NCBI GenBank assembly: GCA_001548435.1
Contig: AP017308.1
Location: 5,465,030-5,529,029 of the forward strand
Reading direction: 5' to 3'
Source of the DNA: Leptolyngbya sp. NIES-3755
Lineage (GTDB): Bacteria; Cyanobacteriota; Cyanobacteriia; Leptolyngbyales; Leptolyngbyaceae
Length of the DNA: 64,000 nt
Below are positions 34,130-43,160 of this stretch, one piece after another. The notes below the pieces were generated by a model that searched no databases, was not told the origin of the DNA, and saw only the letters and a list, made by a program, of their open reading frames with translations. Each line of letters opens with the position of its first letter. Positions within the stretch are counted from its first letter, which is position 1. The position numbers and the translations under genes are program-made.

Positions 34130-36346
34130 ATGGCGCAAGATAAACTTCCTCAGTCGGGCGGTGGAATGGCAGTCGTGCAATATTGGGCGAAACAGACCTT
34201 ATCGCCTGATGGAGTCAAAATTTGGCAGACGCTATTTCATAAAAGTGCGTGTTTGTCCTGTGCGTGGGGAACAGGCGGACAGAAGGGCGGCTTTGTGAAT
34301 GAGGATGGAGAAGTGTTGCAGCGATGCGCGAAAAGTGTGGAAGCGATCGCATCAGAATTACAGCCTGCGACAACGTTTGAACAGAACTATACGATCGACC
34401 AATTACAAGCTTTAACTTCTCAAGAAGCAAATAGTTTAGGGCGTTTGAGCCATCCGCTGATTTTGAGAAAAGGAAGTGATCGTTATGAGCGCATCAGTTG
34501 GGATGAAGTGTACCGGATTGCAGAAGAAGCCTTTCAGAAAGCTCCAGAACGAGTTGCTTCCTATAGTTCTGGGCGTTCCTCGAATGAGGCAGCTTATCTA
34601 TTGCAGTTGATGATGAGGGCATTTGGATCAAACAATTTGGCGGATTGTTCAGATCTATGTCATTCTGCTTCGACAGTCGGGCTAAAGAATATGTTTGGAT
34701 CGGGCACTTCGATGGTCAGTTTAGAAAGCCTGAAACAAGCAGATTGCGTGGTGCTGATTGGATCGAATGCGCCTGCGAACCATCCGCGATTGATGAATGA
34801 ATTGATCCAATTGCGCGATCGAGGTGGCAAAGTGATTGTGATCAATCCAGCGATCGAGGTTGGCTTAGTCAAATTCGGTTCTCCCGCTTTCCCAATCAAA
34901 TCAATGCTAAGCGGTGGTTCTGAGATTTCCTCACTATACTTACAACCGATTCCAGGGAGTGATGTTGCATTGTTCGTCGGATTGCAGAAAGCATTGATCG
35001 AACAAAATCTAGTGCAGCAGAATTTTCTCGAAGCACATGTAGAACAATGGGAAGCTGTAATTAACTATGCAAAATCAATTTCTTGGGAAGTGATTACAGA
35101 AGCTTGTGGCGTTTCTAAACCTGAGATTGATCTCGCAGCGAACATCATTGGAACTTCAGAAGGAGTCGTATTCGCTTGGGCAATGGGTGTTACTCAGCAA
35201 GTAAATGGAGTGGATAACATCTATAGCATTGCAAATACGGCTTTACTGAGCGGCAATGTGGGGAAAGAAGGTGCAGGAACAATGCCCATTCGGGGACACT
35301 CAAATGTTCAGGGATTCGGTTCGATGGGTGTTACGATTCGCTTGAAAAAAGAAATTCAGCAAGCCTTAGAGAAACTATTACAAAAGCCGCTGAGTCGTGT
35401 TCAGGGCTATGATACTCGCGCTTTGATCGATGCTGCTGATGCGAATCAAGTTGATACTTTGATCTGTTTGGGTGGCAATCTGTATGCTGCGAATCCTGAT
35501 CTGACTCAGGCGAAACGGGCTTTAGGAAACATTGAAACAATCTTCTATGTTGCAACTAAGCCGAATCTAGGACATTTTCATGGGCTTGCTAAGCACAATA
35601 CCATCATCGTTCCAGTGTTAGCTCGGTTTGAGAACCCGCACAAAACAACAGCGGAATCTGGTAATAACTTTGTGCGATTGAATGATGAAGGTCAAACGCA
35701 TTTGAAGAATGCCGACTTAGTTTCTGAAGTGGAATTTTTGACTGAAATTGCCGATCGCATTCTCCCTGATTCCCCAGTTGAATGGCGCAAGCTGCAAGAT
35801 ACAAAATACGTCCGCAAGCTAATTGCTCAAACGATTCCGGGGTATGAAAAGATTGGCTCGATCGACGAAACTGAAGAGGAATTTACGATCAAGAATCGAG
35901 TTTTTACGTCTCCTCATTTTCCAACTCCAACCGGAAAAGCTTCAATGTTCGTCACACCTTTACCAGAACTGACAATGCCCACTAAAGCTGATTTTGGTCT
36001 ATCTGAATCTGCACCAGGAATTGTTCTAATTCTAGGAACCGGACGCAGTTACACTCAGCACAATACTGTGGTGTATAAGCCTGGGGATAAATATCGAGCA
36101 ATGCCGCACCGCAATTGTATTTGGATGAACCAAGAGGACGCAGAACGAGCTGGATTCCGAGAGCATCAACGGGTCACAGTCCAAGGAGATGCAGGAAAGA
36201 TGGAGAACGTTGAAGTTATTTATGGAATGATTCGATCGGGGGCTGCGATGATGTTTTATCCAGAGGTAAATGCGATTTTCAAAGCCAAGGTCGATCCTCG
36301 ATCAGGCACTCCTGCTTACAAGCGCGTTCCGGTTGTGGTTTATTAA
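34130..36346 (+). CDS. FdhF/YdeP family molybdopterin oxidoreductase
   Basis: A 738-residue molybdopterin-bis-MGD enzyme of the FdhF/YdeP type: KSACLSCAWGTGGQKGGF at the N-terminus, SYSSGRSSNEAAYLLQLM, CSDLCHSASTVGL, NAPANHPRLMNEL, AIRGHSNVQG-like MPIRGHSNVQGFGSMG, and the C-terminal molydop-binding barrel with TGRSYTQHNTVVYKPGDKYRAMPH. E. coli YdeP is linked to acid resistance; the substrate of cyanobacterial members is unknown. There is no adjacent Fe-S or membrane subunit. Ends 36 bases before the CHAT gene. Confidence 0.85.
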   Translation: MAQDKLPQSGGGMAVVQYWAKQTLSPDGVKIWQTLFHKSACLSCAWGTGGQKGGFVNEDGEVLQRCAKSVEAIASELQPATTFEQNYTIDQLQALTSQEANSLGRLSHPLILRKGSDRYERISWDEVYRIAEEAFQKAPERVASYSSGRSSNEAAYLLQLMMRAFGSNNLADCSDLCHSASTVGLKNMFGSGTSMVSLESLKQADCVVLIGSNAPANHPRLMNELIQLRDRGGKVIVINPAIEVGLVKFGSPAFPIKSMLSGGSEISSLYLQPIPGSDVALFVGLQKALIEQNLVQQNFLEAHVEQWEAVINYAKSISWEVITEACGVSKPEIDLAANIIGTSEGVVFAWAMGVTQQVNGVDNIYSIANTALLSGNVGKEGAGTMPIRGHSNVQGFGSMGVTIRLKKEIQQALEKLLQKPLSRVQGYDTRALIDAADANQVDTLICLGGNLYAANPDLTQAKRALGNIETIFYVATKPNLGHFHGLAKHNTIIVPVLARFENPHKTTAESGNNFVRLNDEGQTHLKNADLVSEVEFLTEIADRILPDSPVEWRKLQDTKYVRKLIAQTIPGYEKIGSIDETEEEFTIKNRVFTSPHFPTPTGKASMFVTPLPELTMPTKADFGLSESAPGIVLILGTGRSYTQHNTVVYKPGDKYRAMPHRNCIWMNQEDAERAGFREHQRVTVQGDAGKMENVEVIYGMIRSGAAMMFYPEVNAIFKAKVDPRSGTPAYKRVPVVVY

Positions 36347-36382
36347 TTTGAAAGTTTGACAATTTTCCTTGAGGAACTTGCC

Positions 36383-37360
36383 ATGACTGAGAGACAGCGT
36401 GAAGACTACTTGAGACTCATCCAGGCATTACTAGAATGTTCGCCTAGTCAAGTGCTTTCGGTTCTAAGCAATCACTTAGAGTTAGTTGATACTGAATTAA
36501 TTTCAGTCATGGTAGAAGTTTTAAGCTTTCTACAAACCAGAGAAGCATATCAAGAAGCTCAATATCTAGTTGAGTTAATCGCTTATTTGAGCAACGAACT
36601 AGCAAGAGGAAACAAAATTCCCTATGCAAGATTAGCTGAAGAGATTCTTCGTTGTGACCGAGGAGAAGAACGTAAGATCTTAAATGCTCATTCAACTCTA
36701 ATCGATGCGAAGTTAGTTCAAATTATGAGGGAACTTGCTGGCTTCCTCAAAGGGCAGGGCGATCAAAACTATCTTTGGCTACAAGATTTTGCGAATCAAG
36801 TTAATGAGGAACTGAAGAATGATTCACCCTACTTGAAGCTTGTTCACGACATTTTGAATTGCCCTACTGGTGAAGAGCAGAAGTTGTTGGCTTCTCATTC
36901 AAGTCTGATGAACGATGCTCTGCTTGAGGCAGTTGAAGAGGTAGCAGATAGGCTGGAGCTTCAGGGGGAGCACGAGCAAGCTCAATCCTTACAACAATTT
37001 CACGACTATCTCTTTACTCGCATAAGGGAAGAAGCTAGAAGCGCAGAACTGGCGGCTAAGGGGATTCCTGAGATCAGTTTAAACGTTTTGCTAACCTACT
37101 CTGCTGAGAGAGCCTTCGAGTGGATGGTCACAACTTTGTCTGTCCGTCATACAATTGCAACTTTTCATAAAGATGTTGACCTTTGCCGAAAGACTCGCAC
37201 AGAAGAGTCCTCCAACTTATCCCTCTCAGCAGTCGAATATAAGCGACAAGGGGATTTTTGTGCTGCGGTAGAAGCCTATAATCGAATTTTTCAAAATGCT
37301 CCAACCGATCCGGATGTTTACTGGGGAGTCTATAAAGCTGGGAGCGTGTCACCTTCTTGA
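36383..37360 (+). pseudogene. 5' part of IS-interrupted TPR-CHAT gene
   Basis: Codons 1-319 of a larger gene. ATG at 36383 has GAGGA 8 bases upstream. Three tandem repeats of about 68 residues (about 8-73, 80-147, 149-217) share a pattern: LxLxxxxLxCxxxxxxxxLxxHxxLxDxxLxxxxxxxAxxLxxQG, e.g. ILRCDRGEERKILNAHSTLID and ILNCPTGEEQKLLASHSSLMN. A TPR-like segment follows (YKRQGDFCAAVEAYNRIFQ). At 37340 the frame runs into an insertion sequence and stops at 37358 after seven foreign codons. The in-frame continuation is at 38525. Confidence 0.85.
37332..37339 (+). repeat. Left copy of IS target duplication
   Basis: ATAAAGCT, repeated exactly at 38517-38524 on the far side of the IS; an 8-bp duplication made on insertion. 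Confidence 0.95.
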
Positions 37361-38242
37361 GAGAATAGATGTCGTGGGATTCAGTTGCTCATTGAGATAA
37401 GCACAGCGTTGTGCCAGCACTTTCGGAATATGCTCCGCTTTCCACCGACCTCCAACAATCTGCAACCGTTGATCAATTTGTTTGACCAACGATTCCACGG
37501 CTCCTGACCCAATCGAACATAGCTCCTCAGCCGCGTAGTAGTCGTAGTTCACAATCCGATGTTGATGCTTCAGCAGATAGTTGCAAAACCGCTCTGCCTC
37601 ATCGGAGGGACACGCCGCTAATTGGGCTAGAGCAGCGCTCACATCTCCTTTCCATAACTGAGCTTCTATCTGTTCTCGGTCGATTTCGTCGCTCGATAAC
37701 TTGAACAAGTTCTCCTTGAGATGATACCAATCGAGAATCTCAATCCGTTGCTCGCTCAACGCGACGATCTGCTGATGCAAGTTCCAGATGCCGTCGTGTC
37801 CATCGCCCAGACAGACAACGACCTCTGCCATCGGACGCGCGCTCACTGTTGCGACCAATGCCTCATTGTCCTGAAACCAAGCTCGACTTTCTCCCTTGCC
37901 ATTGATGCGAACGGCTTTGTACTGTCGCCAGTCCGGTTCGTCTTGAGTGCCACTGGTTAACTTCACATTGCCGCCATCAATACTGATTTCCAGAATCGGC
38001 TCTGGCGCTTCGGGTTCAAGTTCTTCCCACGGTTGTCGCTGGACTAATCGTTGTTGCGTTTTGGCGCTGACGCGCATTCCTGTATACACCGCGATGTCTC
38101 GTTCTGCGCGGGCATAGGAAACCGTTGCACTCGCTCTCAAACAGCACGCTTCCAAGTAAGGACTCATTTGGCTTCTCGCAGATACCCCTAATCGTGTCGC
38201 TTGTTCACTCGTCAATTGCAGTTCTCCTAAGATACTTTTCAA
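37349..38242 (-). CDS. ISKra4-family transposase, catalytic part (ORF B)
   Basis: A 297-residue frame with the catalytic triad region of ISKra4 transposases: first Asp in LEISIDGGNVKL, second in VVCLGDGHDGIW, and Glu in SIGSGAVESLVKQIDQR. WYHLKENLFKL is also typical. The likely entry codon is TTG inside the TTGA overlap with ORF A, or a -1 frameshift from ORF A at that site. Total length of both frames, about 366 residues, equals a full-length family member. Confidence 0.88.
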   Translation of the reverse strand: MKSILGELQLTSEQATRLGVSARSQMSPYLEACCLRASATVSYARAERDIAVYTGMRVSAKTQQRLVQRQPWEELEPEAPEPILEISIDGGNVKLTSGTQDEPDWRQYKAVRINGKGESRAWFQDNEALVATVSARPMAEVVVCLGDGHDGIWNLHQQIVALSEQRIEILDWYHLKENLFKLSSDEIDREQIEAQLWKGDVSAALAQLAACPSDEAERFCNYLLKHQHRIVNYDYYAAEELCSIGSGAVESLVKQIDQRLQIVGGRWKAEHIPKVLAQRCAYLNEQLNPTTSILSRR

Positions 38243-38448
38243 CCGTCGCGGGTAGCCTTCAGTTGTGGCGGTAACTGCTGTGATAAAAAACTCCCTAATC
38301 CTGGTGTGACGTGCTGTTGCACTTGAGTTCGCACCATCGCTTCGATTTCTGCCAAATTCGTTATCTGGCTTTTGTCAGCATCGTTGTACAAGATTTTTGC
38401 AATCGCTTGAACATGGGCATTCAGCGCTTGTTGGTCTTCAGGAGTCAT
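38239..38448 (-). CDS. ISKra4-family transposase, N-terminal part (ORF A)
   Basis: A 69-residue frame starting at ATG 38448 (GAGG about 11 bases upstream), all-helical: DQQALNAHVQAIAKILYNDA...LAEIEAMVRTQVQQHV. It corresponds to the N-terminus of single-frame ISKra4 transposases. Its TGA overlaps the ORF B TTG by 4 bases. Confidence 0.8.
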   Translation of the reverse strand: MTPEDQQALNAHVQAIAKILYNDADKSQITNLAEIEAMVRTQVQQHVTPGLGSFLSQQLPPQLKATRDG

Positions 38449-38503
38449 CGCGGGAACCTCTTCAGGAATCGGTTTCCTTTATTCTCATTTTTCTCCTCAG
38501 AAG

Positions 38504-41500
38504 GTGACACGCTCCCATAAAGCTCATGCCAGTGCTAGAAATTTTGAGCAAGCAGAGCGAGCAATTCAAATTAATGCCTTATTGTTGGCATTCAAATACG
38601 CCTCATTGGGCACTCCGATGTGGCTTCCAGACAACTTTGTTGAGTTGATTCAAACAATGCCTTGTGCATTTATGGCTTTTTGGTTGAAAGCAGATCCTAA
38701 TTTGTTAAAGCATATTGGAGCGATCGCGCTATTACGAAATGGAAGGCTAGATCAGGAAACTGTAGAATCCTACTTGAGCGGTGTTCAGGGACGATGGAAC
38801 GGTAGAGGAAATATCAAAAAGGAAGAAGAGCTTTTTCAGCAGGAAGGACTAACGGCTCTATTTACGCTTCCTTGGAAGGTAATTAAAGATGCAAAACTGC
38901 CTAATTCCTTCTCAGAATGGGTGAACAATTTCACAACATTATTACTAAACGAGGTCAATGAACTACCGCCCAGTCAGAAGCCAGAAGATATAGAACGAAA
39001 CAAAACATATTTAGTCGCAAAGATTTTAGGACGCTCCAAAACGATTCTTAAAGAGAGTTCAAGGAAAAGTAATCATCCAGTCGTAGCAGCCGATAAAAAT
39101 TATGGGGAACTGGTCGTAGTTTTGTTTGTAAATCTAATGATGGAGAAAAAAGATGAGCAAAGTATCTACCCATTGCTACTGGCTCATTTGGATAAGCTGG
39201 ATCAGCACTTTGTTGAAATCTGGCGCACTGCTGTAGTCGAAGATATGCCAGCTTGTATGGAAGCTGTTTGGCACTTCAGTCAATTAATTGCAAAATTTCC
39301 ACACGGTAGTAGAGCAATTAATTTAGAAATTGCGCTTGCTGGTTATGAATCCATACTTCCTTTCTTGTCGGCTGACTCAGCCCAAATTAATGCAGGCTTA
39401 AAGACAATGCTTGGTGATTTATATCGCTGTCGGGTGCTAGGAGACCGAGCAGCGAATGTAGAAACAGCGATTCGCTATTATGAAGAATCGCTTGATGTCT
39501 TCACACATGAAAGTTCTGCTAAGCTATGGGCTGAGGCAAATCTTGGTTTGGGTCTGTCTCTTTGTGCTCGAACTTTCGGTAAACCAGCCGACAACATAGA
39601 ACGCGCCCTCCAGAATTTGAAGTCAGCATTGACCGTTTTTTCATTTGAGGAATCACCAGAAGCATGGGCTGAGTGCTTAAGATGGTTGGGGAATGTTTAC
39701 TGCGATCGACGTGTAGGAAAGAAAAAAAGCAATTTAGAGCAGGCACTTTACTGCTACAACGAAGCGTTACGAGTTCAGACTCGACACACACATCCAGTGC
39801 AGTGGGCAACGCTACAGAACAGTTTAGGAGATGTTTATTTAGATGTAGCTCAGATTGCATTTTTTCAGAATTCCGAAGACGATCCTGCTCCCTCTAGGTA
39901 CAGCCTAACAAGAAATTATCGTAAGCATACAATTGGGCATTATGAGGCTGCACTCACTGTTCTGACTCACGAAGCATTTCCTGAGTATTGGGCTGATATC
40001 CAGCTTAACTTGGGGCTAACCTACTATCTCTTGGATCTGAATGACTGGGTAGAGAGCATTGATCGACAGATTTTCCATTACAGCCAAGCTCTGCAAGTTT
40101 TTACTCGCGAAGCCTTTGCTCACAAATATGTAAAAGCTCATGCTGGTCTAGGTATTGCGTATCGTAATGCAGATTACTACCAAATCAAACCCAGTCAACC
40201 TCTAAATCAGAACTCTGTAAATGAGAGTGCTGATAGCTTAATTTCTCGATCGTATCAAAGCTTCACCACTGCGATTGAAGTCGTAGAAACCCTGCGACGG
40301 GATATTACCTCTGGAGACGAAGTTAAGCATAAATTTGCTGAAAAGTGGAACCCGCTTTATGAGAATGCTGTAGAAACTGCTTTAGAGTTAGGAAAACTCG
40401 CTGAGGCGGTAGAATATATCGAACGGAGTAAAGCTCGAAATCTTGTCGAACTACTAACACACAAAAGTCTTTTTCCCAAACGTGACCGATATTCTCATTC
40501 AAAGCAATATGAGACAGTGTGTGAACAGCTTGAGCAATTCCGCCGAACAATTCTAGCCAAACAGCGAACTCTAGCGAGTGTATTGAGAGATCAAGGCGAC
40601 GAACGTTCGCATCATCTTTACGTTAATGAGTTGCGACAAGAGTTAGATAGACTACAGCAACGGCAAGCGGATCTACTCAGAAGCATTAATCTGAGAGATC
40701 CGTCCTTCAAGTTCACTCAAGAAGTTGCGCCAATCCCTTTCAATCAGATTAGAGAGCGGATCGATGACACTACGACGATCGTGGAGTGGTTTGTTACTGA
40801 TACATCAGTCCATACACCCGACCGTATGCTAGCTTTCCTCATCTCTCGTGATTCACAGCCAGTAGTTCTCTGCTCTGAACAAGCCGACCAACTGAAGAAC
40901 TTATATCGGAAATACCAGAAATGTCCACCCACATCTTCCGAGGATTTTGAGAACAACCTTCAAAAGTTTTCTGAAATTCTTCAAATCGACCAAATCTGCT
41001 CTGAAATTGAGAAGATTTTTGAGAAACAGGGACGCATCTGCGATCGCTTAATCCTGATTCCCCATCGTCAGCTTCATCTGCTGCCGCTTCATGCCCTGCC
41101 ATGCGCTGATGGTAAACTTTTGATTGATCGGTTTGCAAAAGGAATCAGCTATGCTCCTAGTTGTCAACTTTTGCAGATGGCTCAAGAGCAGGCGCGACAT
41201 CGTTCAGGATTTGATCGGCTTTTTGCCATTCAAAATCCTTATCCCACTGACAAGGGAACATTACTCAGTTCTCAGCTTGAAGTCACTCAGATCCTTCAGG
41301 ATTTTGATACTGACAGTAGTACTGTCCTGGCTGAACAGGAGGCAACGATGACAAATTTAATGGTGAGTCAGCAAGAACCATTAAATTTAGCTCATTGCGT
41401 CCACTTCTCATGTCATGGTGAGTTTGATGCTCAAGCTCCACTCCAATCTAGACTCTATTTAGCCAATTCAGAAAATCAATCAGATTCAAGCTGCGACTTA

Positions 41501-41962
41501 ACCTTAGAAGACATTTTTGAGAAGCTTGATTTGAGCCACTGCCGTCTGGTCACACTTGCTGCATGTGAAAGTGGAATGACCGATGCAAGTAGCCTGAGCG
41601 ATGAATACATCGGCTTGCCAAGCGGATTTTTGTATTCAGGTAGCCCAACTGTTGTGAGTTCTCTATGGAGAGCACCAGATTGGGCGACAGCACTTCTGAT
41701 GATTCAGTTTTATAAACGATTGAAGCAAGCTAGAGAAATTGAATTTGGAACGATCGCCACGGTTCTGAAGGAGTCGCAAAACTGGTTACGGCAAATAACG
41801 TTAGAAGGACTAGAACAGTTTGTCGAGGAATTAAATCCCGAATTACGTGGACGGCTTGAGAGGTATCTAAAGAAAAAGCGCGAATCTATAGGTATAGATC
41901 ACAGTCAACCGCTGTATTGTCATCCTTACTATTGGGCTGCATTTACCGCGATCGGATTTTAA
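38504..41962 (+). pseudogene. 3' part of IS-interrupted TPR-CHAT gene (TPR region and CHAT protease domain)
   Basis: The native gene resumes at 38525 and runs 1145 codons. It holds a TPR region (repeats around VETAIRYYEESLDVF, IERALQNLKSALTVF, LEQALYCYNEALRVQ, GHYEAALTVLTHE) and a C-terminal CHAT domain: RLILIPHRQLHLLPLHALP, VHFSCHGEFDAQ with the His (codon 41414-41416) and TLAACESGMTDAS with the Cys (codon 41564-41566), residues about 1283 and 1333 of the restored 1464-residue protein. CHAT domains are caspase/separase-like Cys proteases. The IS right end supplies an in-frame GTG (38504), so a 1152-residue product is conceivable. Confidence 0.88.
38517..38524 (+). repeat. Right copy of IS target duplication
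   Basis: ATAAAGCT, identical to 37332-37339. In the intact gene one copy encodes part of ..Y-K-A-H-A.. across the junction. Confidence 0.95.
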
Positions 41963-41964
41963 GA

Positions 41965-42327
41965 CTAAGAATTGAGCGGCGCACAAAACTTCTTAATACC
42001 CATTTTGTAAGCAGATAAAACGACGGCTGTTGCAACACCTGGCGGAATGCCGACACTCATTGAAACTGGCTCGATCGCAACGGGTATTAGTCCGGTCATC
42101 AAATCGTTTCTAATCTCTTCTTGACAGATTACTTTACGACACTTTTGGATGACATCATTAAAGCCTCGGTCTGGTTCAATGCCCATTTCCTGCACCATGA
42201 GTAATACGATTGCCTCTTCTAAATCCCCTTCACATTCCGCAATCACATCAAGCGCCACGATCGCCTCTGGACGGTCTGCAAGCTGAAGACGAAATTGAGC
42301 AATTTCTTCTGCTGTAGGAATACTCAC
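41965..42327 (-). CDS. Conserved-looking hypothetical protein next to the CHAT gene
   Basis: A 120-residue protein: helical N-terminal half (AEEIAQFRLQLADRPEAIVALDVIAECEGDLEEAIVLLM) with an UBA-like look, then a hydrophobic Gly/Pro-rich C-terminal segment (VSMSVGIPPGVATAVVLSAYKMGIKKFC) that could be a membrane-associated helix. Family not recognised. Its stop lies 2 bases from the convergent stop of the CHAT gene. Confidence 0.7.
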   Translation of the reverse strand: MSIPTAEEIAQFRLQLADRPEAIVALDVIAECEGDLEEAIVLLMVQEMGIEPDRGFNDVIQKCRKVICQEEIRNDLMTGLIPVAIEPVSMSVGIPPGVATAVVLSAYKMGIKKFCAPLNS

Positions 42328-42387
42328 GGTTAAAACTCCACTCTATAAAGCGTTGTCTTCGATTAATTTTATCCTTTCTGAACAAGG

Positions 42388-42987
42388 CTACTTCATCGCG
42401 CCCATTGTATTCTTCCAGGCAAGCTCTTTACAGAGGACAATTAACGCCCGTTCCTCGGCTCCCTGAAAGAGTTGTGACTTGATCAATTCCTCTAAAACCT
42501 GATGCGTTAACTGCACTGAAAAAGTTCCGCCACAGTGCAGTAAATGGCTGTAGTAACAAAACTGCGATCGACCCATTTGATTCAGATGAAAATGGTAAAC
42601 CTCTTCTGGACTCATCCTCTGTACAGGTGTATTCACCGGAACCACAACTTTTGGAATGCCTTGAATCCCGTAAGGCTTACCGTTGTGAGTATTCAATGCT
42701 CCCACTAACACAGTCCAAAGCAATGTCCGAACTTCTTGAACTTGGTCTGGAGTGAACAATGGATCAGGTTCACTGGTCAATCGAATCCCGGTATTGAGAA
42801 ACAGCGGATTAAATAGCTGTGAGTTGTAGACAATTCCGACTGCCCAGTGTCGATCGTCTTCTAATTTCACGAATGTCCCGAAGCCATAGTCATCAGGAAG
42901 TGGAGCGTGAACAAAATCCATTGCATCATCCACTTGCACAATGTAATCACAATGCGAATTCGATTTAACTACTTTTCCCAATCGCAT
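42388..42987 (-). CDS. Conserved cyanobacterial protein with HAS-barrel-like start
   Basis: A 199-residue soluble protein I recognise as widespread in cyanobacteria but without known function. The first 60 residues (RLGKVVKSNSHCDYIVQVDD, DDYGFGTFVKLEDDRHWAVGIVYNSQLFNP) resemble the HAS-barrel found at the start of HerA-type ATPases, then a helical half including RSQFCYYSHLLHCGG. GGAG 9 bases before ATG at 42987 decides against the upstream GTG. Stands alone between the 120-residue gene and rpiA. Confidence 0.72.
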   Translation of the reverse strand: MRLGKVVKSNSHCDYIVQVDDAMDFVHAPLPDDYGFGTFVKLEDDRHWAVGIVYNSQLFNPLFLNTGIRLTSEPDPLFTPDQVQEVRTLLWTVLVGALNTHNGKPYGIQGIPKVVVPVNTPVQRMSPEEVYHFHLNQMGRSQFCYYSHLLHCGGTFSVQLTHQVLEELIKSQLFQGAEERALIVLCKELAWKNTMGAMK

Positions 42988-43160
42988 GACTATCACTCCG
43001 CTAATTCACTCGCATTTTACAGTGCTGCGAGTTTTTGTACTACTAATTTGTGATGATCCATCCCTGGATTAAATTTTTAGTGAATCGTCGATCGCGGATC
43101 GTGGGTGTCCCCAAAGTTGATAGAGTGAAAAACGAATGATTCTAACAGGAACGATCCGCG

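Follow-up and report, generated by a model that had tools for sequence, protein, structure and literature searches.

In type III-E CRISPR systems, Csx29 is described as a TPR-CHAT peptidase that cleaves Csx30, a protein encoded by a neighbouring gene (PMC10028731). HetF of the cyanobacterium Anabaena carries a CHAT domain at residues 1-555 and a transmembrane segment, and is reported to take part in cell division and heterocyst initiation (PMC8406250). The EAD and adaptor-based conflict systems of multicellular bacteria are described as combining small non-enzymatic domains with caspase-like effectors (PMC8195603, PMC10907252). Among mobile elements, ISMich2 is reported to contain two ORFs that require a -1 frameshift (PMC3942029).

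We compare these with one locus of Leptolyngbya sp. NIES-3755, located in a stretch of 64,000 nucleotides (contig AP017308.1, positions 5,465,030 to 5,529,029) that was analysed as a whole and is referred to here as the window. A gene for a TPR-CHAT protein is split there by an insertion sequence (IS), and a small gene, ORF120, lies tail-to-tail with it. Our favoured account, which we hold to be probable, is that an IS burst hit one half of a mobile module, made up of a CHAT peptidase and a small convergent partner that would set its activity. Like Csx29 (PMC10028731), the window protein has a putative TPR region, a CHAT domain with a His/Cys pair and a neighbour-encoded partner. However, membership of Csx29 was rejected, with a score of 68.9 bits against the NF041237 cut-off of 300, and the window partner is convergent. 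The setting also differs, in that the module, judged by its immediate neighbours, adjoins genes for an oxidoreductase and for a conserved protein of 202 aa rather than Cas7-11. The window protein resembles HetF (PMC8406250) in being a cyanobacterial CHAT protein with putative TPR, but its CHAT domain is C-terminal and it is partnered, whereas that of HetF occupies residues 1-555. With the EAD and adaptor-based systems it shares the pairing of a small domain with a caspase-like effector, although the strict tail-to-tail layout of the window module does not appear in the portions of the two accounts consulted (PMC8195603, PMC10907252). Assignment to a known anti-phage defence system was likewise rejected: PADLOC-DB gave 0 matches for the two CHAT pieces, ORF120 and the right flanking gene, and a defence role of the module is unproven. 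PADLOC on eight relatives returned two weak partial matches.

The preliminary description had read the locus as a single TPR-CHAT gene split by an IS with perfect ends and a target duplication, and the sequence bears this out. The 5′ piece (36383..37339, + strand) comprises 319 codons with N-terminal repeats, and the 3′ piece (38525..41962, + strand) encodes 1145 aa (1146 codons including the stop). The two pieces lie in one frame and neither contains another stop, such that the joined frame of 319 + 1145 codons has no further stop, in line with the earlier claim. Between them lies the IS (37340..38516, - strand), which is 1177 bp long with perfect 18-bp terminal repeats and is flanked by an 8-bp duplication, ATAAAGCT (left copy 37332..37339, right copy 38517..38524); together, IS and duplication measure 1185 bp, a multiple of 3. 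With the IS in place, the open frame of the 5′ piece runs into the element and stops at 37360, and the frame of the 3′ piece is open from a GTG at 38504, also inside the IS, from which the 3′ piece could be translated.

The CHAT domain occupies residues 835-1144 of the 3′ piece (41027..41956, + strand) and matches PF12770 with 161.4 bits (E = 4e-47, cut-off 24). Its putative catalytic codons are a His at 41414-41416 and a Cys at 41564-41566 (H964 and C1014 in the numbering of the 3′ piece), within the motifs HFSCHGE and LAACESG, and both residues are kept in 23/23 aligned relatives. The earlier identification as a CHAT protease thus stands at the level of domain and putative dyad, and peptidase activity of the large protein is probable on that basis. 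Simple loss of the protease, which had also been supposed, is another matter: because the 1145-codon 3′ piece retains the CHAT domain with its His/Cys pair and a possible GTG start, peptidase loss is not proven. The TPR region of the window 3′ piece scores 17.2 bits with TPR_12, under the Pfam cut-off of 30.1; one relative (L116) has 14 stretches of TPR_10. The N-terminal repeat of the 5′ piece is shared with intact relatives (L123, E=1.4e-13; L118, 3e-8; L120, 2.6e-6), where it stands in one open frame with CHAT (1353, 1020 and 1412 aa, respectively), and it is also found in some other proteins. No solved structure related to the 3′ piece by sequence was found at E<=0.01, and scans for promoters and terminators gave values at or below those of shuffles.

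How distinct this gene is from its relatives is evident in genome searches. Of 388 genomes, 17 reach E = 1e-70, the strain's own being the sole one from its family, so no close relative was found within the family at this level. The best-scoring family matches of the CHAT gene are about 28-35% identical, and a search of genome contigs for close orthologues returned 4 loci at 27-35%. At least three further places in the genome itself match the CHAT part. The window CHAT protein sits on a long branch in both trees considered below; in the larger one, the branch measures 0.78 against a median of 0.28 for its relatives, about 2.8-fold. It may therefore have diverged fast, or may already have been drifting, before the IS arrived.

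Comparison with relatives at the insertion site places both genes in a lineage-specific segment. The TPR-CHAT gene, the IS and ORF120 occupy 36347..42387, about 6 kb with the IS included, between two convergent conserved genes. The left flanking gene (34130..36346, + strand) encodes an FdhF/YdeP-family oxidoreductase (TIGR01701, 852 bits) and is 90-94% identical in 5/7 same-genus genomes, and the right flanking gene (42388..42996, - strand) encodes 202 aa and has a match in 41/42 family genomes, its own included. In three same-genus genomes (G003, G006 and G001), the flanking genes are adjacent and tail-to-tail, with about 160, 87 and 3 bp, respectively, between the matching ends. Since the flanking genes adjoin in these genomes, the segment is an insert, or was lost in the relatives. 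Neither the CHAT gene nor ORF120 lies between the flanking genes in any of these three informative genomes; in the other 4/7, the flanking genes were not found together, which makes them uninformative. In the comparison that the preliminary description had proposed, the seven same-genus genomes showed neither an uninterrupted gene nor two separate genes at this site. Base composition says little: G+C is 43% in the CHAT pieces and averages 47% across the window, but the flanking genes themselves are at 44-45%.

The broken gene belongs to a recurring two-gene module, in which a lineage-specific CHAT gene is paired with a convergent small gene. CHAT loci were picked solely by similarity to the window 3′ piece, not by pairing, in a first set of 50 and a second set of 40, the latter being the next 40 places without a prior locus, taken in order of E-value from a longer list. 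An ORF120 homologue (type A) lies downstream of CHAT in 31 of the 90 loci (17/50 and 14/40), on the opposite strand, and hence convergent, in every case. An unrelated small protein (type B) is encoded downstream in 33 (19/50 and 14/40), on the same strand in every case. Both partners together occur in 0/90 loci, and neither in 26 (14/50 and 12/40), of which one has just 350 bases of downstream sequence and another borders a run of N. Because some of the first 50 loci had gone into the HMMs for ORF120 and type B, the independent test is the second set, with 14 type A, 14 type B and 12 neither, in which 7 of the 14 type-B assignments are weak (25-49 bits) and that of L219 is the most doubtful. 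Control loci totalling 148 kb contain neither family. A relationship between the two partner types was considered and rejected (hhalign probability 0.7%). The tail of type B is variable and, judged by eye, rich in proline and serine, and in three loci (L151, L203 and L209) type B is fused to the C-terminus of CHAT. Against Pfam, the small partner families gave no match above cut-off, except for a DUF6887 domain joined to some ORF120 relatives; it precedes the ORF120 partner in frame at L125:7282-7953 (the same locus as L145) and L184:1853-2518.

Adding the window, L127 and L136 to the 31 type-A loci gives 34 pairs, of which 33 were measured, with L148 left out. In 23 of the 33 (12/19 and 11/14), the two genes overlap at their stop codons by exactly 4 bp, and the largest stop-to-stop gaps are 433 and 711 bp. 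L148 (in G372) has a CHAT frame with an internal TAG and is possibly another broken module. One type-A pair resides on plasmid AP018225.1 of Nostoc linckia NIES-25, which is typed as conjugative. The distances of CHAT and ORF120 are correlated across the 34 pairs (Mantel r = 0.81, with 0/2000 permutations as high), a correlation that would be expected from shared inheritance alone too, and near relatives among the CHAT loci are not independent. In the larger tree, a quick one of 53 rows without bootstrap, partner labels change 5 times against a mean of 13.4 in shuffles (0/500 as low), and at least 4 of the changes are forced by starred branches; the window protein groups with the type A rows at an SH-aLRT of 91, which does not reach the starred level. 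In this tree, partner type reads as inherited, but swapped. A second tree, smaller (34 rows) and built with more care, did not place the window protein and gave no clear partner clustering: labels changed 5 times where shuffles averaged 7.2, and 34 and 44 of 500 shuffles were as low. A limited search of open-licence papers did not name the pair among the matches listed, and the module is apparently undescribed.

ORF120 itself (41965..42327, - strand, 120 codons) encodes a small, predicted helical partner protein, and its stop codon lies 2 bp from that of the CHAT gene. The family is present in 126/291 genomes of the class and is usually single-copy, 119 of the 126 having one match; in the window's own genome there is also an unpaired second copy at C1:3116218-3116571. 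Among the best 30 ORF120-family loci, a CHAT gene is found within 1.5 kb in 4 (the window, G282, G160 and G148), in each case tail-to-tail, and in none of the other 26. Two cysteines are conserved, in 34/34 and 33/34 of the paired copies. AlphaFold2 run without an alignment predicts a compact, all-helical protein in its best model (pLDDT 85, pTM 0.82), the highest of five models with mean pLDDT from 45.9 to 85.2. This model, made without an alignment, has no PDB match at E<=0.001, and the window ORF120 matches no Pfam family and no NCBIfam model above cut-off. A UBA-like N-terminus, suspected from the sequence, was set aside, with UBA_4 reaching only E=0.6 in one relative. Viral carriage was also discarded: relatives in IMG/VR gave none confirmed (one short pattern), and 50,697 phage records gave no match.

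Unpaired copies of ORF120 occur in several other surroundings. At L117:4839-9787 (G266), an extra copy is head-to-head with a gene for a 1474-aa NNH5-NACHT-WD40 (NLR-like) protein and has no CHAT neighbour. At L126:6888-7652 and L099:1086-1905, small proteins with the N-terminal repeat of the CHAT genes are encoded tail-to-tail with an unpaired ORF120 copy, and are perhaps module remnants. In three genomes of one family (L119, L121 and L124), the surroundings of the unpaired ORF120 are conserved and include a gene for 519-526 aa, which we take to resemble kaiC.

How might the two proteins of the module work together? The favoured account is that the TPR-CHAT gene and ORF120 would form a horizontally moved two-gene module, in which the N-terminal helical repeats and TPR of the large protein may serve as sensor or scaffold and the C-terminal CHAT cysteine peptidase, its activity suggested by the dyad, would be the effector. 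ORF120 would bind the CHAT protein and set its activity, and possibly would be cleaved by the peptidase as well. Direct physical coupling of the two is suggested because the pairs co-diverge, partners are swapped exclusively and type B is in places fused to CHAT. Most likely, ORF120 is a dedicated regulator of the CHAT protein. In the window strain, the IS parts the N-terminal repeats from TPR-CHAT and leaves ORF120 without an intact mate. A role of the module in conflict or cell death may be proposed by analogy to Csx29-Csx30 and the adaptor-based systems (PMC10028731, PMC8195603, PMC10907252).

A close second to the regulator reading, which we hold possible but less likely than not, is that the small partner is both substrate and executioner: a CHAT peptidase triggered through TPR would cleave it and free an active fragment, as in Csx29/Csx30. 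Csx29 is described as a TPR-CHAT peptidase cleaving a neighbour-encoded protein (PMC10028731), and the variable, proline- and serine-rich tail of type B, along with its occasional fusion to CHAT, is in keeping with such a role. However, ORF120 is predicted to be compact and all-helical and, because it is convergent, it is separately transcribed, both of which count against this reading. A third possibility, which we regard as rather doubtful, is a mobile cyanobacterial conflict module in which the TPR-CHAT peptidase, locked to ORF120 through the overlap of their stop codons, guards it as a bait derived from a conserved, mostly single-copy cyanobacterial protein; tampering with the bait, or with the household paralogue that it mimics, would unleash proteolysis, and type B would replace the bait in sister modules.

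It could also be argued that the pairing means little. On this argument, to which we give a low probability, an ordinary IS hit fell in an expendable gene, one of the abundant TPR-CHAT genes, next to which the small gene is incidental. The further CHAT places in the genome and the 26/90 CHAT loci with neither partner agree with it, but 31/90 loci with a convergent ORF120, 33/90 with type B and none with both are hard to call incidental, as is the 4-bp stop overlap in 23/33 pairs. The half of this explanation that concerns the neighbour is contradicted; the half that concerns the IS, which draws on the 22 other full-length copies in the genome, is accepted, and is examined next.

The IS is a new element of a known kind. 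Its transposase scores 237.9 bits against NF033572 (ISKra4 family; cut-off 205) and is encoded by two frames on the - strand, ORF1 (38239..38448) and ORF2 (37349..38242), the latter in the -1 frame relative to ORF1 and open from 38374. The two frames overlap at 38239-38374, where a slippery heptamer, TTTTTTA, in the frame of ORF1 (38284..38290, - strand) is a candidate site of programmed -1 frameshifting. The element thus has the two-ORF layout of the ISMich2 group of the ISKra4 family (p-MULT 4 transposases), together with the terminal inverted repeats (18 bp) and short direct repeats (8-9 bp duplications) of that family, and no difference from the group is evident.

Scoring of 40 among 52 first-look candidates gave at least 23 full-length copies of the IS in the genome, the window copy included. 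Compared with that copy, 21 of the other 22 are free of mismatches and the last has just one, which upholds the earlier view that the insertion is recent. Exact duplications bound 22 of the 23 copies, measuring 9 bp in 16 of them and 8 bp in 6, the sole exception being L040; the duplication at the window copy is accordingly no chance match. Partial matches add three more rows, two of which, about 1.3 kb apart, resemble one disrupted copy; the missing duplication at L040 and a disrupted copy at L043 hint at rearrangement. No near-identical copy was found in 41 other family genomes, where the best matches are 82% identical over 202 bp and 65% over the full length.

The genes hit by these copies are varied. 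Fifteen of the 23 copies, the window's included, lie within frames that run for at least 300 codons without a stop, counted with at least 25 codons required on each side of the IS. The broken genes encode an AcrB-type transporter, histidine kinases, a TonB receptor, a class 3 lipase, and WD40, AAA, GAF/Cache, pentapeptide and cyclic-nucleotide-binding proteins. A Pfam scan of the longer broken piece at 20 of the 22 other sites (all but L036 and L040; E<=1e-5) gave matches for 14 and none for 6, with one of the 14, at L026, looking spurious. The WD40 piece (L023) and the AAA piece (L028) may come from conflict proteins, so there could be a minor bias of the IS towards such proteins. Taken together, the copies look like the outcome of a recent burst that shows no evident target preference, in which an ISKra4-family element of ISMich2-type layout placed one copy in the TPR-CHAT gene, one casualty among several, and the insertion into the CHAT gene is a clear but ordinary event.

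The remaining proposal of the preliminary description, that selection favoured losing the CHAT gene or that excision makes it a phase-variable switch, was rejected and is most improbable: the clean 8-bp duplication and preserved frame on which it could draw are shared in kind by 22/23 copies that look the same and keep their duplications, lending reversibility no support, the interrupted genes are functionally mixed, and the genome holds further CHAT-matching places. More generally, a clean duplication in a single attractive gene says little about selection until the other copies in the genome have been counted.

For the cyanobacteria, the pairing is what gives this broken gene its wider interest. 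Many of their genomes contain, as first-look candidates, dozens of CHAT-like places of unknown function. If many of these places are one half of an exclusive module with either of two small partners, the partners would give a direct handle on substrate, trigger and phenotype, which could help to assign a function to a large class of orphan proteins and to link them to the caspase-like systems of type III-E CRISPR and bacterial immunity.
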